Source of the DNA: Myxococcota bacterium
Lineage (GTDB): Bacteria; Myxococcota; B64-G9
Direction of reading: 5' to 3'
Assembly: GCA_022710975.1 (NCBI GenBank)
Contig: JAKLGA010000019.1
Span: 62,001 to 126,000 of the forward strand
Length of the DNA: 64,000 nt
Every line of letters begins with the position of its first letter. The first letter of the stretch is position 1. A model generated the notes under the pieces. The model was not told where the DNA came from and searched no databases. It saw only the letters and a program-made list of their open reading frames with translations. Made by a program: the position numbers and the translations under genes. Of the stretch, positions 45,494 to 63,276 are shown piece after piece.

Positions 45494-46246
45494 CTACACC
45501 ACCCGGCTGACCAGGTACTGCACCTCGACCGCGCCGATGCGGAAGATCATGCCGTCCCGGAGCACCAGGCTGCGCACGGGCTTGTTGCGGAAGTGCACGC
45601 CGTTGGTGGAGCTGAGATCGTTGAGCACGTGCCGCCCGTCCTGCAGGTAGACGTGGGCGTGGCGGCGGGAGACCGTGGGGTGGTCGATGACCAGGTCGGC
45701 CAGGGCGGGATCGCGGCCGATCACCCGCTCGGTGGCCCGCAGGCGGAACTCGGTGCCGGCCAGCTCCTTCTGCAGCACCAGCACGCCCTCGCGCACCTGG
45801 GGCGAGGCCTCGACCGCGGGGGGCAGCCGCGGCCGCGCGCCCACCCGGGTGGAAGCGTCGAACAGCTCCAGGTGCTGGCCGAGGGCCGCGCGCGCCTCGG
45901 GGCCGAGCCCCACGAACTCGACCCGCGTGCCCCGGCCGCTCGCGTCCGCGCCGACCACGCGGCCGTCGACCCGGATGCCGCCCTCCTGGCCCGCCAGCCG
46001 GAGGGTCAGGCCCACCTGGGAGCCCAGCCGGAAGGGGATGGGCGCGTGGAAGGCCACGCCTCCCAGGCTGATGTTGGCGGTGCGTCGGTAGGTGCGCTGG
46101 CCGCTGGTCTCCACCTCGACCATGATCTCGGCCGCCACCCGCTCGTGGGTCCGCCGGTCGTCGCGCCGCTCGCGGCGCACCCGGCGGCGCTCGGTGACGA
46201 TGGGCAGGTTGACGCGCCTTCGATCCTTGCGTCTGCGTTCTGCCAT
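45494..46246 (-). CDS. PilZ-FHA protein
   Basis: 250 aa. Basic N-terminal region (about 1-25, Arg-rich), then a PilZ-type beta-barrel (about 30-130: ERVAAEIMVEVETSGQRTYRR, NISLGGVAF as the NxSxxG site, and VGLGPEARAA) and a C-terminal FHA domain (about 165-250: RLRATERVIGRDPALADLVID, VSRRHAHVYLQDG, NDLSSTNGVHF). PilZ binds c-di-GMP, using an RxxxR plus NxSxxG pair; FHA binds phosphothreonine, so this couples c-di-GMP with Ser/Thr kinase signalling. ATG overlaps the stop of gpsA (TGATG). The RxxxR is only partially apparent in the Arg-rich start. Confidence 0.87.
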   Translation of the reverse strand: MAERRRKDRRRVNLPIVTERRRVRRERRDDRRTHERVAAEIMVEVETSGQRTYRRTANISLGGVAFHAPIPFRLGSQVGLTLRLAGQEGGIRVDGRVVGADASGRGTRVEFVGLGPEARAALGQHLELFDASTRVGARPRLPPAVEASPQVREGVLVLQKELAGTEFRLRATERVIGRDPALADLVIDHPTVSRRHAHVYLQDGRHVLNDLSSTNGVHFRNKPVRSLVLRDGMIFRIGAVEVQYLVSRVV

Positions 46247-47250
46247 CAGGCGTAGATCTCCTTCTTCAGGCTGCGGCCCATCAGGCCGATCACGGCCTCC
46301 TGGACCGGCAGATCCTCGTACAGCATCCGGTAGACGTGGGCGCAGATGGGCATGTCGATCTCTTCCCGGGTGGCCAGGCGGTGGGCGGCCCGCGCGGTCA
46401 GGATGCCCTCGGCCACCTGGCGCATGTCGCGCACGATGTCCTCGCGCCGCAGGCCCTGCGCCAGCTTCTGGCCCACCTGGCGGTTCCGGGACAGCGCGCC
46501 GGTGCAGGTCAGCACCAGATCGCCCATGCCCGACAGCCCGGACAGGGTGAGCGGGTTGGCCCCGCGTTTCACCGCCAGGCGGGTGACCTCGGCCAGCCCG
46601 CGGGTGATCAGCGCGGCCACCGCGTTGTGGCCCAGGCCGAGCCCGTCGGCGGCCCCGGCGGCGATGGCGATCACGTTCTTCAGCGCCCCGCCCAGCTCGA
46701 CCCCGACCACGTCGGTGGTGGTGTAGGCGCGGAAGGTGGGCCCGGCCACCTGCTGCTGCACGGCCACGGCCACCCGCTCGTAGCGTGCCGCCACGCTGAC
46801 CGCGGTCGGCCGCAGCAGCGCCACCTCCCGGGCGAAGCTGGGGCCCGACAGGAAGGCCAGCATGGGGTGGTAGACGATGGGCAGCACGTCCTCGAGCACC
46901 TCGCCCACCGTCATCAGGCTGTCGTTCTCGATGCCCTTGGTGGCGCTGACCAGCGGCACGCCGACCGGCAGCAGCGGGGCCAGCCGGCCCATGATCTCGC
47001 GCACCACGTGGGACGGCATCACCGACAGCACCAGCCCGGCCCCGTCCACGGCCTCGCCGAGCGAGGTGGTGCAGCCGAGCGCTGGGTGCAGCTCGATGCC
47101 CGCCAGGTACACCCGGTTCTCGTGGCGCTGGCGGATGTCCTCGGCCACCTCGGGCTCGTAGGCCCACAGCCGGACCTCGTCGCCCTTGCTGGCCAGCAGC
47201 TGGGCCAGCGCCGTGCCCCAGGCGCCCGCGCCGATCACGCCCACCCTCAC
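46246..47250 (-). CDS. gpsA: NAD(P)-dependent glycerol-3-phosphate dehydrogenase (copy 1)
   Basis: 334 aa, standard length. Makes sn-glycerol 3-phosphate from dihydroxyacetone phosphate for phospholipid synthesis. Rossmann motif VGVIGAGAWGTALAQ, SATKGIE, SGPSFAREV, catalytic Lys in GGALKNVIAIAAG and GMGDLVLTCTGALSRNRQVG are all family signatures. GTG start 47250 has GGGAGG upstream. It shares an operon with the AAA ATPase and the PilZ-FHA gene. A second gpsA occurs at 61349. Confidence 0.95.
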   Translation of the reverse strand: MRVGVIGAGAWGTALAQLLASKGDEVRLWAYEPEVAEDIRQRHENRVYLAGIELHPALGCTTSLGEAVDGAGLVLSVMPSHVVREIMGRLAPLLPVGVPLVSATKGIENDSLMTVGEVLEDVLPIVYHPMLAFLSGPSFAREVALLRPTAVSVAARYERVAVAVQQQVAGPTFRAYTTTDVVGVELGGALKNVIAIAAGAADGLGLGHNAVAALITRGLAEVTRLAVKRGANPLTLSGLSGMGDLVLTCTGALSRNRQVGQKLAQGLRREDIVRDMRQVAEGILTARAAHRLATREEIDMPICAHVYRMLYEDLPVQEAVIGLMGRSLKKEIYA

Positions 47251-47262
47251 GGCCGGCCTCCC

Positions 47263-48747
<1,485 letters not shown>

Positions 48748-48775
48748 CGCAGTCCTCCTCGGGTTCGGCGCGGGC

Positions 48776-50572
48776 TCACTCCACGGTGACCCGCATGATC
48801 TCCTCGAAGGTGGTCAGGCCCTGGGCCAGCTTTTTGATGGCCGTCTCGCGCAGCGTCATCATGCCGTCCAGCCGGGCCACCTTCATGATCTCCTTGGTGT
48901 CGGAGCGCTGGTTGATGAGCTTGCAGATCTTGTCGCTGACCGGCATGACCTCGTAGACCGCGGTGCGGCCCACGTAGCCCGTGCCGCGGCAGGCCGGGCA
49001 GCCCTCGCCGTGGTAGATGGGCAGGCGCCGGTTCTGATCCTCGGGCATCTTCATGTGCAGCAGGTTGATCTGGTCCGGGGTGAGGTAGGTCTTGCGCTTG
49101 CACTGGACGCAGATGAGCCGGAGCAGCCGCTGGGCCACGATGCCCACCAGGGTGGAGGACAGCAAGAAGGGCTCCACGCCCAGGTCCAGGATGCGCCCGA
49201 TGGCCGAGCCGGAGTCGTTGGTGTGCAGGGTGGCGAACACCATGTGGCCGGTCAGCGCGGCCTGGACCGCGTTCGAGGCGGTCTCCGCGTCACGCACCTC
49301 GCCCACCATGATCACGTCGGGGTCCTGGCGCAGGATGGTGCGCAGGGCCGAGCCGAAGGTGATGTCGATGTTGGGCTTCACCGCCACCTGGTTGAAGTCC
49401 TCGACCACCATCTCGATCGGGTCCTCGATCGACACGATGTTGATCTCGGGGCTGGCCAGGTACTTGAGCGACGAGTACAGGGTCGTGGTCTTGCCGCTGC
49501 CGGTCGGGCCGGTCACCAGCACCAGCCCGTTGGGCCGCACGATGAACTCCTCGTACAGCTTGAAGTCGCGCGGGTTGAAGCCGAGCGCCGACAGGTCCTG
49601 GAGCAGGACGGTGGGATCGAAGATGCGCAGCACCACCTTCTCGCCGAAGGCCACCGGCATGGTGGACAGGCGCAGCTCGGTCTCGGCCTCGCCGCTGCCC
49701 GTCTTGATGCGCCCGTCCTGCGGCCGGCGCTTCTCGGAGATGTCCATGCGGGCCAGCATCTTCAGGCGTGAGACGGCCGCGTTGTGCACCACCCTGGGCA
49801 GCGTGGTGATGTTGTGCAGCACGCCGTCGATGCGCATGCGCACCAGGCTGTGATCGCGCTTGGGCTCGATGTGGATGTCGGAGGCGCGCTGGTCGAAGGC
49901 GTAGTGGAGCATGTACTCCACCGCCGCCACCACGTGCTTGTCGGTGGCCTCGAGGTCGTCGACCGCCTTCAGCTTGACCAGCTGCTCCAGGTTCCCCAGA
50001 TCCGTCCCCAGCTCCATGCCCTCGGCCGCGGCGTTCACGCTGGAGCGGAAGCCGTACACCTCGGTGATGATGCGCTGGATGTCGAGCTTGGAGGACACCA
50101 CCGGCCGCACCGAGCGGCCGATCAGCCGGCGCAGGTTCTCGACCAGCTCGACGTCGAAGGGATCGGCCACCGCCACCACCACGTCCGGGCCCTCCTGGCG
50201 CAGCACCAGCACCGAGTGGCGCCGGGCGAAGGGCCGCGAGAGCACCTGGGTGATCAGCTTCATGTCGAGCTTGAGCGGGTCGATCTTCTCGTACGGGATC
50301 GCGGACAGCTCGGCCAGGAGCCTGGCCAGGCGATCCTCGTCCAGGACCGCGTTGGGCTCGCCCTTCAGCGGCAGGCGGAAGGAGGCTAGCAGCTCCCAGG
50401 GCAGGATCTCGGCCCGGTGGCGCCCGGAGCGCACCGCGGCCTGCTCCCGCAGCAGCCGCTGGCGCTGGCCGTTCTCCTTGACCAGGACCGAACGGACCTG
50501 CGCGTCGTCCAGCATCCCGCGCTCGACGAGCAGGTCGCAAAGCGACCGCAAATCAGGAGGTTGCATCGCCAT
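48776..50572 (-). CDS. Type II secretion/type IV pilus assembly ATPase (PilB/GspE family)
   Basis: 598 aa, standard for GspE/PilB. N-terminal MshEN-like domain (about 1-170, LRSLCDLLVERGMLDDAQV), a domain able to bind c-di-GMP in relatives. It continues with the Walker A GPTGSGKTTTLYSSL, Asp box region, Walker B DVIMVGEVRDAET, His box (ATLHTNDSGSAIGR) and the zinc Cys motif CVQCKRK...GCPACRGTGYVG. It powers pseudopilus or pilus assembly. ATG 50572 falls 10 nt after a -10 element, so the mRNA is nearly leaderless; ATG 50566 is an alternative start. It heads the leftward operon that runs to the GH5 gene. Confidence 0.93.
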   Translation of the reverse strand: MAMQPPDLRSLCDLLVERGMLDDAQVRSVLVKENGQRQRLLREQAAVRSGRHRAEILPWELLASFRLPLKGEPNAVLDEDRLARLLAELSAIPYEKIDPLKLDMKLITQVLSRPFARRHSVLVLRQEGPDVVVAVADPFDVELVENLRRLIGRSVRPVVSSKLDIQRIITEVYGFRSSVNAAAEGMELGTDLGNLEQLVKLKAVDDLEATDKHVVAAVEYMLHYAFDQRASDIHIEPKRDHSLVRMRIDGVLHNITTLPRVVHNAAVSRLKMLARMDISEKRRPQDGRIKTGSGEAETELRLSTMPVAFGEKVVLRIFDPTVLLQDLSALGFNPRDFKLYEEFIVRPNGLVLVTGPTGSGKTTTLYSSLKYLASPEINIVSIEDPIEMVVEDFNQVAVKPNIDITFGSALRTILRQDPDVIMVGEVRDAETASNAVQAALTGHMVFATLHTNDSGSAIGRILDLGVEPFLLSSTLVGIVAQRLLRLICVQCKRKTYLTPDQINLLHMKMPEDQNRRLPIYHGEGCPACRGTGYVGRTAVYEVMPVSDKICKLINQRSDTKEIMKVARLDGMMTLRETAIKKLAQGLTTFEEIMRVTVE

Positions 50573-50746: not shown

Positions 50747-51955
50747 ATGAAACACGGACCATGGATGCAGGCGGCCGCGCTCGCGCTGGCCGCCACAGCG
50801 ACGCTGGCCGTCTGGGGCTGCCCCAAGACCGGCGCGCCGGAGGCCGGGGACGCAGCCGTCCAGCCGGCCGGGGAGAGCGGCCCGGCGCCGCAGATCGCCT
50901 GCGAGGCGCCCGAGCACGACTTCGGCACCGTCAGCCAGGGGGCCGAGGTGACGCACACCTTCGCCATCAAGAACACCGGCGCGGGCGTGCTGAAGATCGA
51001 GCGCGCCAGGGGTGGCTGAGGCTGCACCGCGGCCGTCGTCTCGGCGGCCGAGCTTCCCCCGGGTGGGGAAGGCAAGATCGAGGTGAAGGTGGCGACCCGC
51101 GGCCGGCAGGGCAAGCTGGAGAAGACCGTGGTGGTGTACTCCAACGACCCGGCCAAGCCGCAGTTCGAGCTCAAGATCCGCGCCAACGTCGAGGTGCTGC
51201 TGAGCCTGGACCCGGACAAGCTGGTCCTGAGGCCCTTGCTCAAGGGTTCCCGCGCCGAGCACACCGTCAAGCTCGCCGGCAAGCTGGCGGAGCAGGCCAA
51301 GATCCTGTCGGTCGAGTCGAACCGGCCGGAGCTCAAGGCCGAGCTGGCCAAGGAACCGGACGGCAAGGTGGTGATCAAGATCGTCTACCAGGCGCCCGAC
51401 AAGCCCGAGCGCTTCAGCGCCAACGTGGCGGTCAAGACCGATCAGGAGGCGGCCAAGGAGCTGAAGTTCTTCTTCTCGGCCGAGGTGACGGGGGATCTCA
51501 TCCTGTCCGCGCCCTTCGTGATGTTCACCGCCTTCGATGCCGGCAAGGCGCCCGAGTCCACTCTCACGGTTCGCTCGCTCGGCGGGAAGCCGTTCAAGAT
51601 CAAGAAGGTCGAAGACTCGAACGGAGCGGTCACGGCCCAGGTCACGGCCCAGGGGGTCGAGCAGCAGCTCAAGCTCACCCTGACCAAGGCGCCCGGGGCG
51701 CCGCGCGGGACGCTCAAGATCCACACCGATCGCGCGGACCAGCCGATCCTCGAGGCGCAGTACAACGTGCGGCCCAAGGGCGCCCCGAACGCCGGCATGC
51801 GGATGCCGCTCGTGCGCGGCGGACCGGCGCCGGTCGGTCCGGGCGCGAAGCCGGGCCAGGCCATCCAGGTGGCCCCGCCCAACAAGCTCCAGAAGGCCCC
51901 TCTCAGGCTGACCCCGACCAGGTCTCCGGAGGCTCCGCCCCCCAAGGCGCCCTGA
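50747..51955 (+). CDS. Candidate selenoprotein: DUF1573 lipoprotein with in-frame TGA (Sec91)
   Basis: 402 aa if TGA 51017-51019 is read as selenocysteine. The N-terminus is a signal peptide with a lipobox-like WGC (Cys25). A DUF1573-type immunoglobulin-like domain spans about 48-150, then repeated beta domains to about 340 and a Pro-rich tail. The family motif (SCGCT in typical DUF1573) reads here GG-U91-G-C93-T; the two downstream paralogues have GCACT and SCGST at the aligned position. Reading continues in frame for 312 codons with clear homology after the TGA. A hairpin at 51030-51050 has SECIS-like spacing, and tRNA-Sec lies at 56118. Cys52 (IACEAPEHDFG) is conserved in all three paralogues. 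The UGC motif is a candidate redox site. Alternative: recent nonsense mutation, judged less likely. Confidence 0.8.
51030..51050 (+). promoter_or_regulatory. Candidate bacterial SECIS hairpin
   Basis: CGGCCGUC pairs with GGCGGCCG (8 bp, one U-G pair) around loop GUCUC. The stem starts 10 nt after the UGA and the loop 18 nt after it, and the loop begins with G. These match the remembered rules for SelB-binding hairpins (loop about 16-37 nt after UGA, G in its first two bases). Not folded by software. Confidence 0.55.
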
Positions 51956-52101: not shown

Positions 52102-52761
52102 GTGCCACTGTTCCACAACCGCTCGCCCCGCCAGGAAGAATGGCTCCCCACGTTCGTCGAGCGGTGCGAGCAATTCCTCGACCGCGTCGAGGAGGCCGTC
52201 GAGACCTTCCTCCTGTCCGGGCAGGGAGAGGCCTTCGAGTCCTCGATCCGCCTGACCCGCGCCGCGGAGGAGGCGGCCCTGGCGGCCCGTCCGCTCCTGG
52301 GCGGCAGGCCCCGTCCGCCCACCACGACGGGCCTGGGCGGTCACCTCACGGGGGTGGCCGACGCCACGGCCGGCATGCTCACCGCCGCTCGCAGCCTGCT
52401 GTACGCGCTGCGCTGTCAGCGGGTGGTGCTGCCGCCGGAGCTGAGCGAGGACTTCGCCCAGCTCCTGGACGTGAACCTGGAGGCGTGCCGGCAGGTGCTG
52501 AAGCGACTCCGATCCCAGGTCGCCCACCCGAACCTGCGCATGTTGGAGGATCAGCGCATGGACGGGCTGGCCAAGGAGAGCGACCGCCTCGCCAAGGCCA
52601 TCGTCTTCCGCGTCTTCGGCGGGCCCTCGGGGGCCGAGCCCGGCGACCAGCTGATGCTCCGGGATGTGGTGCTGATGACCGACGCCCTGTCCGAGCGCGC
52701 CCGCCGGACCGCCGACCTGCTCGACATGCTGACGCCGCTTTCCAGCCGCGCGGGCCGGTGA
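52102..52761 (+). CDS. DUF47/PhoU-like protein
   Basis: 219 aa, all-helical, beginning VPLFHNRSPRQEEWLP like other DUF47 proteins (MGLF...). Helices carry acidic E/D-x-x-x-D pairs such as RLTRAAEEAAL, KESDRLAKAI and RDVVLMTDALSERARRTAD that resemble metal-binding sites in PhoU-type bundles. DUF47 proteins usually pair with a Pit phosphate transporter gene; none is present here. GTG 52102 is preceded by GAGGAAGAG. It lies between DUF1573 paralogues with its own promoter, so its link to them is unknown. Confidence 0.6.
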   Translation: MPLFHNRSPRQEEWLPTFVERCEQFLDRVEEAVETFLLSGQGEAFESSIRLTRAAEEAALAARPLLGGRPRPPTTTGLGGHLTGVADATAGMLTAARSLLYALRCQRVVLPPELSEDFAQLLDVNLEACRQVLKRLRSQVAHPNLRMLEDQRMDGLAKESDRLAKAIVFRVFGGPSGAEPGDQLMLRDVVLMTDALSERARRTADLLDMLTPLSSRAGR

Positions 52762-52826: not shown

Positions 52827-53942
52827 ATGTCTCGCGCACGAACCAGCCTGCTCGCGCTCGCCTGTCTGGGCGCCGCCCTGCGCCTGGCGGCCTGCCAGGC
52901 CGCGGTGGAGCCCGCGCTGGCCGAGGCCCCGGCGCCGGCGGACGGCGCGCGACCGGAGATCGACTGCGACGGGGCCGAGCACCGTTTCGGCCGCGTCTGG
53001 CAGGGGGCCGAGCTCGAGCACACCTTCCAGGTGATCAACCGCGGCCCGGGCCGGCTGCACCTGGAGCGGTTGCGGGCCGGGTGCGCCTGCACCCGCGCGG
53101 TGCTGCAGGCCTCCGAGCTGGGGCCGGGCGAGCGGGCCGAGGTGGAGGTGACGCTCGCCACGCGAGGCCTGCTGGGCCCGATCGAGCGCCAGGTGGAGGT
53201 GCTGTCCGACGACCCGGACCGGCCGGCCCTGGCGCTCCGGCTGGTGGGCGAGGTGGCCCAGGCGGCGGCCTTCGCCGAGGACCGCCTCGACCTGGGCGCC
53301 GTGCCCCTCGGCGAGCGCAGGCAGGCGGTGGTGGGACTCCGCGGGGAGCTGGCCGAGCGGGTGAGGCTGCACGACCTCGAGCTGGGCGGCAGCGAGGGCT
53401 GGTCCGTCCGGGTCGTGGAACGCGACGACCGGAGCGAGCTCGAGGTCGAGCTGCGGGCGGGGCACACGCCCGGACCGCGCGACGCCCGGCTGAGCGCGCG
53501 CACGGGCCTGGCCGAGGCGCCCCGGATCCACCTGGCGCTCGCGGCCGAGGTCGTGGGCGACCTCGGCCTCGACCGCCCCGCCGTGTCCTTCGATCCCTTC
53601 GACGCCACGGCGCCCGCCAGGCTGGTCAGCGTGCGCTCGGCCCGCGGGCAGGCCTTCCGCCTGCTAGGCGCCGAGGATCCCGCCGGGGCGGTGACCGCCC
53701 GCCTGCGCCCGCGCCCGGCCCGCGCGGGCCAGCCGCAGGGGATCGAGCTGAAGCTCGCCCGCGCGCCGGAGACGCCGCGCGGCCGGTTGAGGATCCGTAC
53801 CGATCGCCCCGACCAGCCCGTGCTGGAGCTTCCGTACGTGGTGCGAGCCTACGCCCGCCCGGAGCCGCCCGCGCCACCGCCCTGCCCCGCCCCTGGACGG
53901 CCCATGCCTCCGCCCGCTGGCGAACCGAAGGAGAAACCATGA
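52827..53942 (+). CDS. DUF1573-type lipoprotein (Cys paralogue)
   Basis: 371 aa. Lipobox LAAC (Cys23). Same domain order as the selenoprotein: conserved Cys47 in IDCDGAEHRFG, DUF1573 motif AGC86-A-C88-T, beta domains up to about 340 and a Pro-rich tail. The Cys pair aligns with Sec91/Cys93 of the first paralogue. ATG 52827 was preferred over GTG 52821; neither has a strong Shine-Dalgarno. The stop overlaps the ATG of the next paralogue (ATGA). Confidence 0.82.
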   Translation: MSRARTSLLALACLGAALRLAACQAAVEPALAEAPAPADGARPEIDCDGAEHRFGRVWQGAELEHTFQVINRGPGRLHLERLRAGCACTRAVLQASELGPGERAEVEVTLATRGLLGPIERQVEVLSDDPDRPALALRLVGEVAQAAAFAEDRLDLGAVPLGERRQAVVGLRGELAERVRLHDLELGGSEGWSVRVVERDDRSELEVELRAGHTPGPRDARLSARTGLAEAPRIHLALAAEVVGDLGLDRPAVSFDPFDATAPARLVSVRSARGQAFRLLGAEDPAGAVTARLRPRPARAGQPQGIELKLARAPETPRGRLRIRTDRPDQPVLELPYVVRAYARPEPPAPPPCPAPGRPMPPPAGEPKEKP

Positions 53943-55072
53943 ACACGCCCCTCCCGCTGCTGTCGACGTGGACCGCGCTCCTGGCCCTGCTCGGCCTGGG
54001 TGCGTCCTGCCAGAAGCCTTCCGAGCCGCCCGTGACCCCGGAGCCGGTCCAGGCCGCCCCGGCCGCCCAGGCCGGCCCGCGAATCGCCTGCGCGGCCCCG
54101 GAGCACGACTTCGGCGCGGTCCTGCAGGGCACGCAGGTCAAGCACAGCTTCAGCCTGCAGAACCAGGGAGACGCGCCGCTCAAGATCAAGCACGTGTCCT
54201 CCTCCTGCGGCTCCACCGTGGGCAAGCCGGCGGCGGGCGAGGTCGCGCCGGGCGGGGAGACGAAGATCGACGTCACCGTCGACACCTCCGGCCGCCAGGG
54301 GGCGCTCGAGAAGAGCGTGTTCGTGTACTCCAACGACACCCCGCGCCGGAGGTTCGAGCTCAAGATATCCGGCACGGTCGAGGTCCAGGTGGGCTTCGAG
54401 CCCCCGCGGCTGAAGCTGCGCAACGTCCTCAAGGGAAGCCGCGCCAGCCAGCAGCTCAAGCTCATCGGCCGCGACCTGGCGAACGCCAAGCTCCAGGTCC
54501 TGCGCACCAGCGATCCGCAGGCCCTCCAGGCCAAGCTGGTCCAGGTGGACGGGCAGCCGGGCCTCGAGGTCGGCTTCCAGGCCGGCCCCAAGCCGGGCCG
54601 CTTCGAGGCGGAGGTGGTGCTGCAGACCGGCCTGCCCGGACAGCCTGAGGCCCGCCTGCCCGTGGTCGTCGACGCGACGGGCGACCTGGTCATCGACCAG
54701 GAGGTGGTGGACTTCGGCCTGGTGTCGCCCACCAAGCCGGTGTCCAGGACGGTGCGCCTGTGGTCCCTGGGCGGCAAGCCCTTCGAGGTGAAGGGGGTAG
54801 AGGATCCAGACGGGCTGGTGGCGGGCAAGGCGCAGAAGTCGGGCAGCGAGTTCACCCTCGTGCTGGACGCCATGCGCAGCGGCGACAAGGGCGCGGGCGA
54901 GGTGATCGTGCGCACGGATCGCAAGGACCAACCCGAGGTGCGCGTGCCCTACCACGTGCGGGTGTTCAAGCGCCGGGCGCCCGCGGTGGCGCCCCTGGGC
55001 CGCGGCGGGCCCGGCCCGGCGCCGCTCAGCCCGACGCCCCTCAAGAAGGTGCCCCCGCCCGCCCCCAGGTGA
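53939..55072 (+). CDS. DUF1573-type lipoprotein (Cys-Ser paralogue)
   Basis: 377 aa. Lipobox GASC (Cys24). IACAAPEHDFG carries the extra conserved Cys51, and the motif is SSSC90-G-S92-T, so only one Cys of the pair remains. The rest (KSVFVYSNDTPRRRFELKIS) is nearly colinear with the selenoprotein (KTVVVYSNDPAKPQFELKI). Translation is coupled to the previous paralogue by a 4-nt overlap, with AAGGAGAAA upstream. Confidence 0.83.
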   Translation: MNTPLPLLSTWTALLALLGLGASCQKPSEPPVTPEPVQAAPAAQAGPRIACAAPEHDFGAVLQGTQVKHSFSLQNQGDAPLKIKHVSSSCGSTVGKPAAGEVAPGGETKIDVTVDTSGRQGALEKSVFVYSNDTPRRRFELKISGTVEVQVGFEPPRLKLRNVLKGSRASQQLKLIGRDLANAKLQVLRTSDPQALQAKLVQVDGQPGLEVGFQAGPKPGRFEAEVVLQTGLPGQPEARLPVVVDATGDLVIDQEVVDFGLVSPTKPVSRTVRLWSLGGKPFEVKGVEDPDGLVAGKAQKSGSEFTLVLDAMRSGDKGAGEVIVRTDRKDQPEVRVPYHVRVFKRRAPAVAPLGRGGPGPAPLSPTPLKKVPPPAPR

Positions 55073-55090: not shown

Positions 55091-56017
55091 TCAGAATCCC
55101 CCCGGATAGAGGCGCTCGACGTACCGCGCGGCGAAGTCCGTGCCGAAGCCGTCCGCGCCCCGCGCGCGCAGATCGTCCAGCGCCTGCCAGGCCCGCGCCA
55201 GCATGTCCTCGCGGGTGGTGGGGTCCTCGCTCACGGCCGCCGCGGCCAGCCAGGGGTCCACGTCGGCGAAGCCGTTCAGGTACAGCCGGACGCCGGCCGG
55301 GTGGAGGATGGCGGCCGCCTCGGCCGCGGTGGCCGGATCGCCGTGGGCCCAGCGCAGCTCCAGGTCGGCCGCCTCCGGCGCGACGAAGGCGCTGAAGTCC
55401 TCGAGCTGCTGCCCGCGCGGCATGACCAGCCCGCCCGGCACCTCGGCCCGGTAGGCCCGCAGGTGCGCGAGGTCCGCGTCGAAGAACAGCACGCGCCCCG
55501 CGGCCCCGGCCGTCCGCACCTCGGCGGCTACCCGGGTCACCTCACCGGCCTTGAAGTCCAGGTCGAGCAGCAACCCGGTCGCCGCCAGCACCTCGCCGAA
55601 GGTGGCCGGGTGGCAGCGCTCGGGCTGGGACTCGGGCGCCTCGGCGCAGCGCGCGTCGTCGATCACCAGGCTCCTGAACTCCTGCAGGCTGAGCTGCGCG
55701 ACCAGGGTGCGGCCGGGGAAGCGCGTCCCGCCGTCCGTGGTACGCGTCACGTCCTCGTCGTGCATCAGCACCACGGCTCCATCGGCGGTCTCGCGGGTGT
55801 CGACCTCCACCATCGGCACACCCAGGCGCTCGCACGAGCGGTAGGCCGCCAGGGTGTTCTCCGGCTCACCGTCGCACAGCCCGCGGTGGGCGGAGACGAG
55901 CGGCCGCGGGCAGTCCGGCTCCGCCAGGCAGCGGGCTGGGGTGAGCGGCGCCTGCCCGGCCCCGCAGCCCGCGCCCAGCCACACCAGCCACAGCCCCACT
56001 CCGATCACGCGTCGCAT
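55091..56017 (-). CDS. Glycerophosphodiester phosphodiesterase-type lipoprotein
   Basis: 308 aa. Lipobox LGAGC (Cys18). GDPD motifs are SAHRGLCDGEPENTLAAY (HR-(x)n-ENT), VEVDTRETADGAVVLMHDE (ExD...HD) and the metal-site His/Glu residues of the TIM barrel. These enzymes release glycerol 3-phosphate from lipid-derived diesters. ATG 56017 has GGGAGGCGG upstream. The 3' end faces the DUF1573 operon with 18 nt between. Confidence 0.88.
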   Translation of the reverse strand: MRRVIGVGLWLVWLGAGCGAGQAPLTPARCLAEPDCPRPLVSAHRGLCDGEPENTLAAYRSCERLGVPMVEVDTRETADGAVVLMHDEDVTRTTDGGTRFPGRTLVAQLSLQEFRSLVIDDARCAEAPESQPERCHPATFGEVLAATGLLLDLDFKAGEVTRVAAEVRTAGAAGRVLFFDADLAHLRAYRAEVPGGLVMPRGQQLEDFSAFVAPEAADLELRWAHGDPATAAEAAAILHPAGVRLYLNGFADVDPWLAAAAVSEDPTTREDMLARAWQALDDLRARGADGFGTDFAARYVERLYPGGF

Positions 56018-56117: not shown

Positions 56118-56214
56118 GGAAGTGCCTGGGTCCTGGTGGGCCTCCCGGGCTTCAAACCCGGCGTGGCGCGCGATGAGCGCGTCAGGTGGGTTCGATTCCC
56201 ATGCACTTCCGCCA
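56118..56214 (+). tRNA. selC: tRNA-Sec (anticodon TCA)
   Basis: 97 nt. The 8-bp acceptor stem GGAAGTGC/GCACTTCC, anticodon stem CCGGG/CCCGG with 7-nt loop CTTCAAA (anticodon TCA at 56152-56154), long variable arm (about 56162-56183), T-arm TGGGTTCGATTCCCA and encoded G-CCA end all match bacterial tRNA-Sec, and clearly differ from a suppressor tRNA. It reads UGA codons with SelB. No selA, selB or selD is present in this window. Confidence 0.95.
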
Positions 56215-56225
56215 TTGTCTGCAGC

Positions 56226-56256
56226 GGCCCCATCCCCGCCCGGGGGTGGGGCCTTT
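56226..56256 (+). terminator. Intrinsic terminator after tRNA-Sec
   Basis: 12-bp stem GGCCCCATCCCC/GGGGGTGGGGCC (one T-G pair) with loop GCCC, followed by TTT, beginning 12 nt after the tRNA CCA. It separates the tRNA from the opposing histidine-kinase gene. Confidence 0.75.
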
Positions 56257-56266
56257 GTATGGGTGC

Positions 56267-58987
<2,721 letters not shown>

Positions 58988-58994
58988 GGGCCCC

Positions 58995-59567
58995 CTACGT
59001 CTCGGGCTCGACGACGATCCGCGCCAGGCGAAGCAGCTTGGCGCTGATCTCGAGGCCCGCGCGCCTGGCCGCCTCGAGGTTGATCTCGAAGCGCACGCGA
59101 TCGCCGGACAGGTAGAAGTTCACGTGCACTCCCCGCTCGGCGAAACCCCGGGTGTCGCCGAGCAGCAGGATCGGACGCCGGCCCAGACGCGACGCCACGC
59201 GGGCTAGCCGTCTGCTCTCGGAGCGGGCGATGAACAGGATGCGACAATCGGTCACGTCCTGCAAGCGGGCGAAGCGCACCACCTGGATGGTCTGTCCCGC
59301 GGGGGTGCTGCGCCCGGCCAGCGTGTCGATCGTCCGGCCGAAGGGGTCCTCCCCCAGCACGCCCACCACGAAGTCGCCCTCGGCGTCGGCGTCGCCCGGG
59401 GCGGGCCACTCCACGTAGCGGACCATCTGGAGGATGAAGGCCGCCTTGACCGCGTACTCACGCGCGCTGGCCGACTCCTCCGCCCGGGCCGGCAGGCAGC
59501 CGAAGAGCGCCAGCCCCAGGAGGAACCACGCCACCCCGACCTGGCGCGACAGGCGGTCCAATCCCAC
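58995..59567 (-). CDS. YfiR-like periplasmic protein
   Basis: 190 aa. Signal peptide ([20 protein letters not shown]), then the YfiR/DUF4154 fold: [77 protein letters not shown]. In Pseudomonas YfiR inhibits the diguanylate cyclase YfiN, which has the same kind of sensor domain as the kinase that follows. GTG 59567 is preceded by CGGAG. Confidence 0.85.
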
Positions 59568-59619
59568 GTTTGCTCCGACCCTGCCCCAAATAGGGGCTCC
59601 AGGGCATGAATCGTCCCAA

Positions 59620-59648
59620 TCCCTATGTGGGTTGCCCTCTCCTGTCAA
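59620..59648 (-). promoter_or_regulatory. Promoter of the YfiR-hybrid kinase operon
   Basis: Minus strand: -35 TTGACA (59648-59643), 17-nt spacer, -10 TAGGGA (59625-59620). A 5-bp hairpin CCCC-AAATA-GGGG (59583-59597) lies in the leader. Confidence 0.45.
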
Positions 59649-59759: not shown

Positions 59760-61352
59760 GTGAGAGCCAAGGACCGCGAGCGGGTGCTGGCGGAGGTGAT
59801 CCAGCGCGTCATCTCCCGGGCGGGCGCGACGCCGCAGCAGCTCGAGCAGGCGCTGTTCGACACCCTGTACGACGAGCGGCGGCGGCTGGAGGTGGAGCGG
59901 CACCGGAGCCCGGCGCGGCGCGAGCTCTCGTTCTACGACCAGCTCCAGACCCGCGCCCTGAAGGCCGGCCCCGACGAGCAGCGCGACATCCTGCGCGAGG
60001 TGGTGGGCCGCTTCGCGGCCGAGGTGGCGGGCCACTTCGATGAACGTATCTACCACCTGACCACCAAGGTCGTGCCGCCCGCGCTCACCTTGCTGTTCAA
60101 CGCCGTCAGCCCGCTGAAGCTGCTGCAGCAGATCCCCTCCGGGCTGTCGCGGCTGGACGACCAGCTCGAGATCTCGGGCGAGACCGGGGCGCTGAAACGC
60201 GCCGTGGCCCAGGGTACCGTGGTCCTGGTGCCCACCCACGCCAGCCACATGGACAGCATCCTGGTGGGCTACATGCTCTACCGGCTCGGCCTGCCGCCCT
60301 TCGTGTACGGCGCCGGCCTGAACCTGTTCCACAACCGGCTGGTCGGCTTCTTCATGCACAACCTCGGGGCCTACAAGGTGGACCGCAAGAAGAAGGCCGC
60401 GATCTACAAGGAGGTCCTCAAGACCTACGCCGGGGTCAGCATCGAGCTCGGCTACCACAACCTGTTCTTCCCCGGCGGCACGCGCAGCCGGTCGGGCGCC
60501 GTCGAGAACCGCCTGAAGCTCGGGTTGCTGGGCATGGGCCTGGACGCCTACGTGCGCTCCCTGCGAGCGGGCAGCCAGCGGCCGGACGTGTTCGTGGTGC
60601 CCTGCACCATCAACTACCAGCTCGTGCTGGAGGCCGAGACGCTGATCGACGACCACCTCAAGGAGGTCGGCAAGAGCCGCTACATCATCGAGGACGACGA
60701 GTTCTCCAGGCCGCGGCGGGTGTTCGAGTTCGTCTCGCGCCTGTTCGACCTCCAGTCGCGCATCCACATCCGCGTGTCGCGGCCGCTGGATCCCTTCGGC
60801 AACCAGGTGGACGAGCAGGGCCGCTCGCTCGACGCCCGCGGCCGCGCGGTCGACCGGCGGCGGTACGTGCTCGCGGGCGAAGAGCCTGGCTTCGACGCCC
60901 AGCGCGATCAGGAGTACACCCGGGAGCTCGCCCGCGCCATCGTGGAGTCCTACCGCCGGGACACGGTCTTCGGCAGCGTGCACCTGGTGGCCTGGGTGGT
61001 GTTCCACTGGCTGCAGGAGCGCAACTGCGGCCTGGATCTCTACCGGCTGCTGCGCACCGGCGGGGCCGAGGCCAGCATGCCGCTCCTGGAGGCCTACCGG
61101 CGCATCGAGCACGTGCGCGAGGCCATGCGTCGCGAGGAGGCCGCCGGCCGCATGCGCCTGGACGCGACCCTGCGGGACGGCGACTCGGTGCAGGTGCTCG
61201 CGGACGCGCTGGCGCACCTGCGCGTGTTCCACGTGAACCCGGCCCTGGAGCGCCGCGGCGACCGGCTGCTGCACATCGACCGCAACCTGCTGCTCTACTA
61301 CCAGAATCGCCTGGCGGACCGCGGCCTGCCCGCCGAGGGGGTGCCGGCATGA
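59760..61352 (+). CDS. PlsB-like glycerol-3-phosphate acyltransferase family protein
   Basis: 530 aa. Contains the acyltransferase motif HASHMDS (Hx4D, His160 and Asp165), GYHNLFFPGGTRSRSG (a variant of PEGTRSR) and VVPCTINY. These are PlsB/PlsC-type motifs for transferring acyl groups to glycerol 3-phosphate; the long N- and C-terminal helical regions fit the larger PlsB-like class. GTG start (59760) follows GGCGGGGTGG. It overlaps gpsA2 by 4 nt, forming a phosphatidic-acid synthesis pair. Confidence 0.8.
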   Translation: MRAKDRERVLAEVIQRVISRAGATPQQLEQALFDTLYDERRRLEVERHRSPARRELSFYDQLQTRALKAGPDEQRDILREVVGRFAAEVAGHFDERIYHLTTKVVPPALTLLFNAVSPLKLLQQIPSGLSRLDDQLEISGETGALKRAVAQGTVVLVPTHASHMDSILVGYMLYRLGLPPFVYGAGLNLFHNRLVGFFMHNLGAYKVDRKKKAAIYKEVLKTYAGVSIELGYHNLFFPGGTRSRSGAVENRLKLGLLGMGLDAYVRSLRAGSQRPDVFVVPCTINYQLVLEAETLIDDHLKEVGKSRYIIEDDEFSRPRRVFEFVSRLFDLQSRIHIRVSRPLDPFGNQVDEQGRSLDARGRAVDRRRYVLAGEEPGFDAQRDQEYTRELARAIVESYRRDTVFGSVHLVAWVVFHWLQERNCGLDLYRLLRTGGAEASMPLLEAYRRIEHVREAMRREEAAGRMRLDATLRDGDSVQVLADALAHLRVFHVNPALERRGDRLLHIDRNLLLYYQNRLADRGLPAEGVPA

Positions 61353-62371
61353 CCCGCGACTCCCTGGACGCGCTGGTGGTGGGCGGGGGCGCCTTCGGCA
61401 CCGCGCTGGCCAGCCAGCTCTCCCGGCTCGGCCGCCGGACGCTGCTGTGGGTGCGCCGACCCGAGCAGGCCGAGGAGATCAACCAGCGCCACACGAACCA
61501 GCGCTACCTGCCCGGCTGCGCGCTGCCCGAGGCGCTGCGGGCCACCAACGATCTGGCCGCTGCGGTGCACGGCGCGCCGTTGCTGCTCGTGGCCGTGCCC
61601 TCGCGCGAGTTCCGCGGGGTGGCCAAGCTGCTCGGGGACTGCGTCGAGGGCGATCACCTGCTGGTGCACGTGGCCAAGGGCATCGAGCGCGGCAGCTTCA
61701 AGCGCATGTCCCAGGTGCTGCGCGAGGAGACCTGCGCCCTCAAGATCGGGGTGCTGTCCGGGCCCAACCTCGCGCCCGAGCTGATGGCGGGCCACCCGGC
61801 CGGGGCCCAGGTGGCCTCCCGCTTCCGGGAGGTGGTCCAGCGCACCCAGGCGCTGTTCGCGGGCGGCCGACTGCGCGTGTACGGCGGCGCGGACGTGGTG
61901 GGCACCGAGGTGGGTGGGGCCTTCAAGAACATCATCGCGCTGGCGGGCGGGGTGGCCGACGGCATGGGCTTCGGCGACAACACCAAGAGCCTGCTGGTCA
62001 CCCGCGGGCTGGGCGAGATGGCCCGCTACGGGGTGGCGGTGGGGGCGGACGTGTTCACCTTCGGCGGCCTGGCCGGGATCGGCGACCTGATGGCAACCTG
62101 CGCGTCCGCGCTGTCGCGCAACCACCAGGTGGGGGAGCGCCTGGGCCGGGGCGAGGCCCTGGACGCCATCCTGGCCAGCATGCCCCACGTGGTCGAGGGG
62201 GTGACCACCACCCAGGCGGTCCACCCCCAGGCCCTGGCGATGAAGCTCGCGCTGCCCATCGTGGGGGCCGTGCACGGCATGCTGTTCGAGGGCTGGTCGC
62301 CCCGCGACGCCGTCGAGCGGCTGATGGCGCTGCCCGTGGGCGACGAGCTTTTCTCGCTGCGCTACCGCTGA
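61349..62371 (+). CDS. gpsA: Glycerol-3-phosphate dehydrogenase family protein (copy 2)
   Basis: 340 aa. Rossmann motif VVGGGAFGTALASQL, HVAKGIERGSF, SGPNLAPELMAG, catalytic Lys in GGAFKNIIALAGG and GIGDLMATCASALSRNHQVG. Coupled to the PlsB-like gene by ATGA, so it supplies glycerol 3-phosphate to that enzyme. It diverges clearly from the other copy, so the two are paralogues rather than a recent duplicate. Confidence 0.93.
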   Translation: MTRDSLDALVVGGGAFGTALASQLSRLGRRTLLWVRRPEQAEEINQRHTNQRYLPGCALPEALRATNDLAAAVHGAPLLLVAVPSREFRGVAKLLGDCVEGDHLLVHVAKGIERGSFKRMSQVLREETCALKIGVLSGPNLAPELMAGHPAGAQVASRFREVVQRTQALFAGGRLRVYGGADVVGTEVGGAFKNIIALAGGVADGMGFGDNTKSLLVTRGLGEMARYGVAVGADVFTFGGLAGIGDLMATCASALSRNHQVGERLGRGEALDAILASMPHVVEGVTTTQAVHPQALAMKLALPIVGAVHGMLFEGWSPRDAVERLMALPVGDELFSLRYR

Positions 62372-62379
62372 GGGGAGCC

Positions 62380-63276
62380 ATGAAACGAAGCGGTTACCCG
62401 CTGTACTTCGACGACCAGCGCACGCTGCCCGAGGGCTTCCGCGGGGACGTGTTCGTCTGGGACATCGACAAGACCTACCTGTCCACGCGCTTCTCCTCCA
62501 TGGGCGGCCTGGCCCGCATCCCCTTCGAGTTCGCCGTAGACAAGAAGGCCATCCCGGGCATGCCCGAGGTGCTGCGCGGGCTCCGGCGCGGCCCGGGCGC
62601 GGAGCCCGCCTGCGCGCCGCTGTACTTCGTCTCCGCCAGCCCGCCCTTCCTGCGCAAGGTGGTGGAGAAGAAGATGCTGCTCGACGGGGTCGAGTTCGAC
62701 GGCATCATCTTCAAGGACTGGGTGACCACCGTGCTGCAGCTGCGCCCTGGCCGCTTGAGGGAGCAGGTGGGCTTCAAGCTGGCCGCGCTGCTGACCGGCC
62801 GGCAGCGGCGGCCCCAGTGCCGGGAGTTCCTGTTCGGCGACGACGTGGAGCGGGACGCCGAGTCGTTCGATGTGTACGCGCGCTTCCTGGAGGGCGAGCT
62901 GGGGGCCGGCGGGCTGGAGGACGAGATGCAGCGGCGCGGCGTGCCGGCCGAGGACCGCAAGCTCATCCACCAGCTCGCGGCCGGCCTGCCCGAGCCGCGG
63001 GGCCGCGTCGGGCGCATCTACATCCACCTCGAGCGCGGGCTCGCGCCCGAGAGCTTCGCCGCCCTCGCGCCCCGGGTGGTGCCCGTCAAGGGCGCCTACC
63101 AGCTCGCGCTGGCGCTGCTCGGCGAGGGGCTGCTCCGCCCGGACGCGGTGCGCGCCGCCCGGGCCGCGGTGCAGAAGCGCCGCCGCCCGCGCAACGGGAC
63201 GCTGGAGGAGCAGGAGACCGACGCGCTGGCCCGCCAGCTCCTCACCCGGGAACAGCTCGCGCGCCTGTCGGCCTGA
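62380..63276 (+). CDS. APP1/LNS2-like phosphatase of the HAD fold
   Basis: 298 aa. Catalytic DxDxT (Asp28, Asp30; VWDIDKTYLS) opens a HAD-like domain of the APP1/LNS2 type, which includes phosphatidate phosphatase of yeast; SASPPFLRKVVEK and FLFGDDVERDAESF supply the later motifs. Located after PlsB-like and GpsA genes, it may convert phosphatidic acid to diacylglycerol (inference). ATG 62380 follows GGGGAG. Confidence 0.78.
   Translation: MKRSGYPLYFDDQRTLPEGFRGDVFVWDIDKTYLSTRFSSMGGLARIPFEFAVDKKAIPGMPEVLRGLRRGPGAEPACAPLYFVSASPPFLRKVVEKKMLLDGVEFDGIIFKDWVTTVLQLRPGRLREQVGFKLAALLTGRQRRPQCREFLFGDDVERDAESFDVYARFLEGELGAGGLEDEMQRRGVPAEDRKLIHQLAAGLPEPRGRVGRIYIHLERGLAPESFAALAPRVVPVKGAYQLALALLGEGLLRPDAVRAARAAVQKRRRPRNGTLEEQETDALARQLLTREQLARLSA

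Follow-up and report, generated by a model that had tools for sequence, protein, structure and literature searches.

A tRNA-Sec gene, a nearby DUF1573 selenoprotein gene and two hairpins following its UGA codon in a Myxococcota bacterium

The window, i.e. the whole stretch of 64,000 nucleotides from a Myxococcota bacterium that was analysed here, harbours a selC gene (tRNA-Sec, with encoded CCA) at positions 56118..56214 of the + strand. ARAGORN called it as the sole tRNA of the 64 kb, with the anticodon UCA (TCA in the DNA) at 56152-56154, and the Rfam covariance model RF01852 matched positions 56118-56210 with 76.8 bits (E 5e-14) against a gathering score of 47 bits. The RNA fold (-53.8 kcal/mol, z -4.3) shows an 8-bp acceptor stem, a 6-bp D stem and a long variable arm, and the sequence was aligned with 41 other tRNA-Sec. 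An earlier note, made from the letters alone, had described a full tRNA-Sec with an 8-bp acceptor stem and a TCA anticodon, and had named a model score below cut-off as the outcome that would speak against it; ARAGORN, the fold and an RF01852 score above the cut-off bear this description out. When compared with the bacterial tRNA-Sec of RF01852, the tRNA agrees in its 8-bp acceptor stem, UCA anticodon, long variable arm and CCA, without any difference. selC itself is an ordinary, intact bacterial tRNA-Sec gene, and since the 7.1 Mb genome contains a single RF01852 match above the cut-off, it is present in one copy. Directly 3' of it lies a terminator-like hairpin (56226..56253, +; 12 pairs, then TTT), where the terminator scan gave two overlapping sites compared with 0.1 expected. 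A promoter scan 5' of selC found none, which is weakly informative given the high GC content. selC is a known integration site of genomic islands, a possibility that we dropped for this locus, as the 3' end of the tRNA is not repeated anywhere in the window.

Upstream of selC on the same strand, the gene at 50747..51955 (+) encodes a 402-aa predicted lipoprotein with three Ig-like (ASH/HYDIN-type) domains, as assigned by Pfam and an AF2 model. Its in-frame UGA (51017..51019, +), recognised from the translation and from its conserved position, corresponds to residue 91 in the motif GGUGC (UxC). With the TGA read through, PF07610 (DUF1573) matches residues 52-148 with E 2e-32. In the AF2 model (mean pLDDT 88), which has three Ig-like domains and resembles ASH/HYDIN-like and other Ig folds, Sec sits in the first domain, between two of its strands. 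Since a structure search with this model returned generic Ig-like folds only, we claim no enzymatic function for the protein. Its lipobox-like start suggests a putative lipoprotein of the envelope, and in the open-access literature we found no publication on the function of Sec-DUF1573.

The UGA occurs at the same codon within GGUGC in all nine genomes (genera) of the window's family. When GTDB genomes were scanned for relatives of the DUF1573 part after the UGA, 79 loci were obtained, 75 of which have UGA at the conserved codon and three a Cys codon, while one starts at a contig end and could not be read. The scan used peptide patterns, so that codons were not selected, although the related sequences are not independent of one another. 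By title, the loci belong to Myxococcota, Deltaproteobacteria/Desulfobacterota, CSSED10-310, Zixibacteria and one Gemmatimonadetes MAG. An ordinary tRNA gene has led here to a selenoprotein family that retains one UGA codon across several phyla. Because the same UGA is found in all family members and in 75 of the 79 relatives, the window's DUF1573 gene is, as judged from comparative sequence data, a selenoprotein gene, and UGA 51017 would be decoded as Sec in the cell. That this UGA is a true stop or a sequencing error, the tRNA being unrelated, has nothing in its favour beyond the default reading of UGA and is hardly conceivable in view of its recurrence in those 75 loci and of the open reading frame continuing beyond it.

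DUF1573 is already known as a selenoprotein family, being listed with the motif UGC (PMC9312934, PMC13188914; both credit Zhang and Gladyshev 2007). The listed family (PF07610) and the proteins described here have the UGC motif in a DUF1573 protein in common; they differ in that the latter also occur, besides Desulfobacterota, in the Myxococcota-affiliated family, CSSED10-310, Zixibacteria and the Gemmatimonadetes MAG, in their linkage to selC in two lineages, and in a second conserved hairpin after the UGA. Cys is aligned with Sec in the three Cys homologues (L128, L161, L164) and in two paralogues within the window. The first of these (52827..53942, +; PF07610 E 3e-14) has Cys in place of Sec in AGCAC, and the second (53939..55072, +; PF07610 E 5.5e-25) has Cys in SSCGS; both separate the Sec gene from selC in the window. 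Among the other family loci that were read, an extra DUF1573 paralogue was seen in G004 only (one).

The machinery for Sec synthesis and insertion is encoded elsewhere in the same genome. selA lies at C10:103923-105269, selB at C16:27421-28551 and a Sec-type selD at C7:36890-37807, all on contigs other than that of the window (C11). The search of the genome for sel genes that the earlier note had suggested thus succeeded for all three, and its label of an "orphan" tRNA-Sec is misleading, even though the absence of selA, selB and selD neighbours was correctly noted: we found no sel genes in the 46-64 kb part of the window. The view that missing machinery neighbours are unusual does not hold either. 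selC and selB are on separate contigs in 13 of the 14 genomes of the phylum sample with strong matches to both, and 34 kb apart in the remaining one. As several of the contigs concerned are 170-545 kb long, assembly fragmentation does not explain the separation, and a selC apart from selB is the normal case in this phylum. Some bacteria have selABC operons (PMC5330540), whereas the window's selC stands apart from selA and selB; selC genes embedded in or overlapping selB have also been described (PMC13188914), which are likewise an unusual genomic setting for selC, but here selC is distant from selB and close to a target gene.

The earlier note had spoken of the presumed target cluster of the tRNA; DUF1573 is not the only predicted target. 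selD itself has an in-frame UGA (motif AGUAAKLGPGDL), and so have an fdhA-type gene on C25 (RTUHAPTV) and a second one, L188 (G000:C11:141977-142741; RLUHSPTV). The tRNA would therewith serve at least four selenoprotein genes, namely DUF1573, selD and the two fdhA-type genes; this number is a lower bound, since family searches cover part of the selenoproteome. The earlier note had reasoned that many further selenoprotein genes would make the linkage accidental. This applies in part, in that selD and the fdhA-type pair are further selenoprotein genes; the linkage itself is conserved. L188 is located on the same contig as selC, about 24 kb downstream and outside the window.

selC starts 4.2 kb past the end of the Sec-DUF1573 gene and 5.1 kb past its UGA, in agreement with the earlier estimate of about 5 kb downstream. 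The two genes belong to a block with the order GpsA-AAA-GspE (opposite strand), Sec-DUF1573, optional DUF47-like and PiT genes, optional GDPD, selC, acyltransferase, GpsA and APP1. In the window, the upstream flank of Sec-DUF1573 consists of GpsA, AAA ATPase and GspE-like genes (46246..50572, -), delimited by ORFs and conserved order, the names GspE and AAA being our assumption. The gene at 52102..52761 (+) gave no Pfam match; tblastn to the L077 homologue identified it as the counterpart of a block protein of the relatives, which we take to be PhoU/DUF47-like. A GDPD-family phosphodiesterase gene (55091..56017, -; PF03009 E 1.9e-17) lies between the DUF1573 genes and selC, and a GDPD gene also adjoins selC in G006 and G007. 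Downstream of selC, acyltransferase, GpsA and APP1-like genes (59760..63276, +), recognised by Pfam and conserved order, represent the remainder of the ancestral block; the order selC-acyltransferase-GpsA-APP1 is common to G003, G004, G005, G006 and G008. A hybrid histidine kinase gene and a YfiR-like gene (56267-59648) between selC and the acyltransferase gene were found in the window's genome only.

The block is present in the window's genome (G000) and in G004, G005 and G006. In G003, Sec-DUF1573 is cut off by a contig end, and a further contig starts with the end of a PiT gene, selC and the acyltransferase gene, so this is probably a fifth genome with the block, across the gap between contigs C300 and C571. 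The block is broken in G002, G007 and G008, where selC retains other block members; in G002 and G008, from which DUF1573 is gone, it still stands beside acyltransferase, GpsA or APP1 genes. Across the block genera, whose Sec-DUF1573 proteins are about 40-48% identical to that of the window, selC begins between about 0.2 kb (G005) and 4.2 kb (window) beyond the end of the Sec-DUF1573 gene. The opposite-strand GDPD gene splits the two in G000 and G006. No other block gene intervenes in G004 and G005, and read-through transcription from DUF1573 into selC is possible there. As to the conservation of synteny raised in the earlier note, the linkage is kept in four genera and recurs in CSSED10-310.

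In this second lineage, four genomes (G029, G030, G031, G032) combine a selC match with a close match to the gene of L114. In all of them selC follows Sec-DUF1573 at a distance of about 3-4 kb in the same orientation, with a tRNA-Phe gene in between and intervening genes unrelated to the block of the window. Their selC genes are 65-73% identical to that of the window, compared with 84-89% within the window's family. Since, in addition, the selC sequences of the two lineages are not mutually closest, the arrangement in CSSED10-310 arose separately. A joint transfer of selC and DUF1573 between the two linked lineages was considered and is unsupported by the tRNA identities. By chance, 0.2-0.3 cases of linkage would be expected (68 non-family loci, 0.97 Mb examined), as opposed to two lineages seen; the probability of the two-lineage recurrence is about 0.02-0.03, as calculated post hoc. 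The other lineages with Sec-DUF1573 mostly have no linkage to selC within the flanks examined, bearing in mind that most genomes compared are metagenome assemblies, in which short contigs may hide some linkages. In L153 (Desulfobacterales) selC is nearby on the opposite strand, yet related loci have no selC nearby, and we did not count this case as strong support. tRNA-Phe genes lie about 1-3 kb downstream of Sec-DUF1573 not only in CSSED10-310 but also in several Desulfobacterota (L104, L114, L115, L241; L133, L136, L144, L150, L152), and L162, L163 and L166 have a tRNA-Asn gene just upstream of it.

We regard it as likely that the window contains the single-copy, working selC of a complete but dispersed Sec system, and that its linkage to DUF1573 reflects inherited gene order and not an operon. 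In such a system, SelA would use selenophosphate from SelD to turn the serine-charged selC tRNA into Sec-tRNA, which SelB would bring to UGA codons marked by a SECIS hairpin, i.e. UGA 51017 in DUF1573 and those of selD and the two fdhA-type genes, and selC would have its place near DUF1573 through inherited order in each lineage. In the window, the opposite-strand gene between the two and selC's own terminator point to inherited order over operon membership, as does selC remaining beside block genes even where DUF1573 has left (G002, G008), and we infer that the linkage plays no direct part in regulation. On the other hand, the separate linkage in CSSED10-310 is somewhat above the expectation for a historical accident (the post hoc probability given above), which argues against plain inherited order. 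A functional reason for the linkage is possible, and the recurrent placement of selC beside Sec-DUF1573 may be seen as a weaker hint of joint use. The specific proposal that selC is kept near an abundant or essential selenoprotein gene for joint control by selenium status or transcription appears unlikely: it would account for the same-strand position 0.2-4.2 kb downstream in four genera and for the repetition of separate origin in four of four CSSED10-310 genomes with selC, but not for the opposite-strand gene and the terminator in the window, the loss in G002, G007 and G008, and the unlinked state of most other Sec-DUF1573 lineages within the flanks examined. A chance neighbourhood without history, conceivable in so far as selC could fall near one of several selenoprotein genes, is very improbable for an order common to four or five genera despite protein identities of about 40-48%.

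The sequence following the UGA of Sec-DUF1573 can form two successive hairpins. Hairpin H1 (51030..51050, +; stem CGGCCGUCG / CGGCGGCCG) is SECIS-like and starts 10 nt past the UGA. Across the relatives the H1 region (about +14 to +34) is variable in sequence, but it is far more stable than random sequences with synonymous codons (two sets: 39 genes with a mean z of -2.2, and 38 genes with one of -2.75), and covariation is seen in the form of compensatory changes. Hairpin H2 (51054..51070, +; UUCCCC-CGGGU-GGGGAA) was supported by a codon test, a genome scan and compensatory changes. In the group of genes with the longer spacing it occupies +38 to +54 with the consensus UUCCCC-CGGGN-GGGGAA and a loop 40 nt past the UGA, and 99.6% of cells are paired. 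Its synonymous sites are frozen: compared with expectations from the rest of each gene, ATT is used in 30 of 31 cases (9.5 expected), CCC in 36 of 39 (11.7), CCG in 37 of 39 (15.3), GGG in 38 of 39 (6.8) and GAA in 38 of 39 (18.7), and this excess is gone by codon 20. Compensatory changes were found at loci retrieved without the PPGGEG pattern: in G043 and G031, where the protein reads PPGEEG, CCT is combined with GAG, and in G044, where it reads LPGGEG, CTC is combined with GGA. Each of the nine family genomes has a single copy of the exact H2 sequence, located at Sec-DUF1573 in every case, and 20 further genomes of the phylum have none; no match was obtained with a reversed control pattern. 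The rare Cys homologues L128, L161 and L164 represent a natural control, in that they encode the PPGGEG peptide with other codons and do not have the canonical second hairpin.

For the stretch that follows the UGA in the window, plain shuffling gave no significant result (z -0.25), as expected in a GC-rich region; the claim of a signal is carried by the comparative tests. RNAalifold gave poor structures on mixed sets because H1 lies in different registers in different genes; in its place we used synonymous-codon tests, register classes and a count of named structures. The H1 register classes were chosen from sequences that were later counted, which biases the count in their favour; slid controls, which keep the relatedness of the sequences, are still well below the observed pairing value.

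According to the bSECIS model, the loop of most elements lies 16-37 nt past the UGA and has a G in its first two positions (PMC13188914). We applied a simple version of it (loop 16-37 nt after the UGA and 3-9 nt long, G in loop positions 1-2, stem of at least 4 pairs, energy ≤ -7.5). H1 of the window passes this test, but only 27 of 78 genes do so in the H1 region, versus 12% of synonymous random sequences. As in the model, the hairpins are directly 3' of the UGA, and H2 of the longer-spacing group conforms to it in its loop (5 nt, with G at position 2 and another G next to it) and its stem (6 bp). It departs from the model in that its loop starts at 40 nt, beyond the spacing published for most elements of this kind, and in being one of two successive hairpins. 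Taken together, the two hairpins probably mark the UGA for reading as Sec. How they share this task is a more tentative matter. The most far-reaching reading, to which we give somewhat under an even chance, is that Sec-DUF1573 mRNAs carry a two-hairpin Sec-insertion signal of a new class, in which H2 would be recognised by SelB or otherwise needed and H1 would be a spacer or second element, this form being common to the Myxococcota-affiliated, CSSED10-310, Zixibacteria and Desulfobacterota genomes. It is rather doubtful that H1 alone is the SECIS and that H2 reflects a constraint at the protein or DNA level (the PPGGEG motif or a binding site). H1 does have the usual spacing and the stronger covariation, and the PPGGEG peptide is itself nearly invariant; yet such a constraint would leave unaccounted for third positions of H2 frozen far beyond host codon use, as in GGG and GAA, the return of conservation to background by codon 20, the co-changing bases where the protein differs (PPGEEG, LPGGEG), and the three Cys homologues that have the same peptide without the canonical hairpin sequence.

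Reviews suspect further classes of bacterial SECIS elements (PMC13188914). The two-hairpin signal, of which we found no earlier record in the open-access literature, provides a concrete, testable candidate for one such class, represented by numerous natural variants; searches for such genes could use the frozen synonymous sites of H2 as a marker. A second group of genes, with one codon fewer, has a likely hairpin UCCCUC/GAGGGA in a shifted register with favoured codons of its own.
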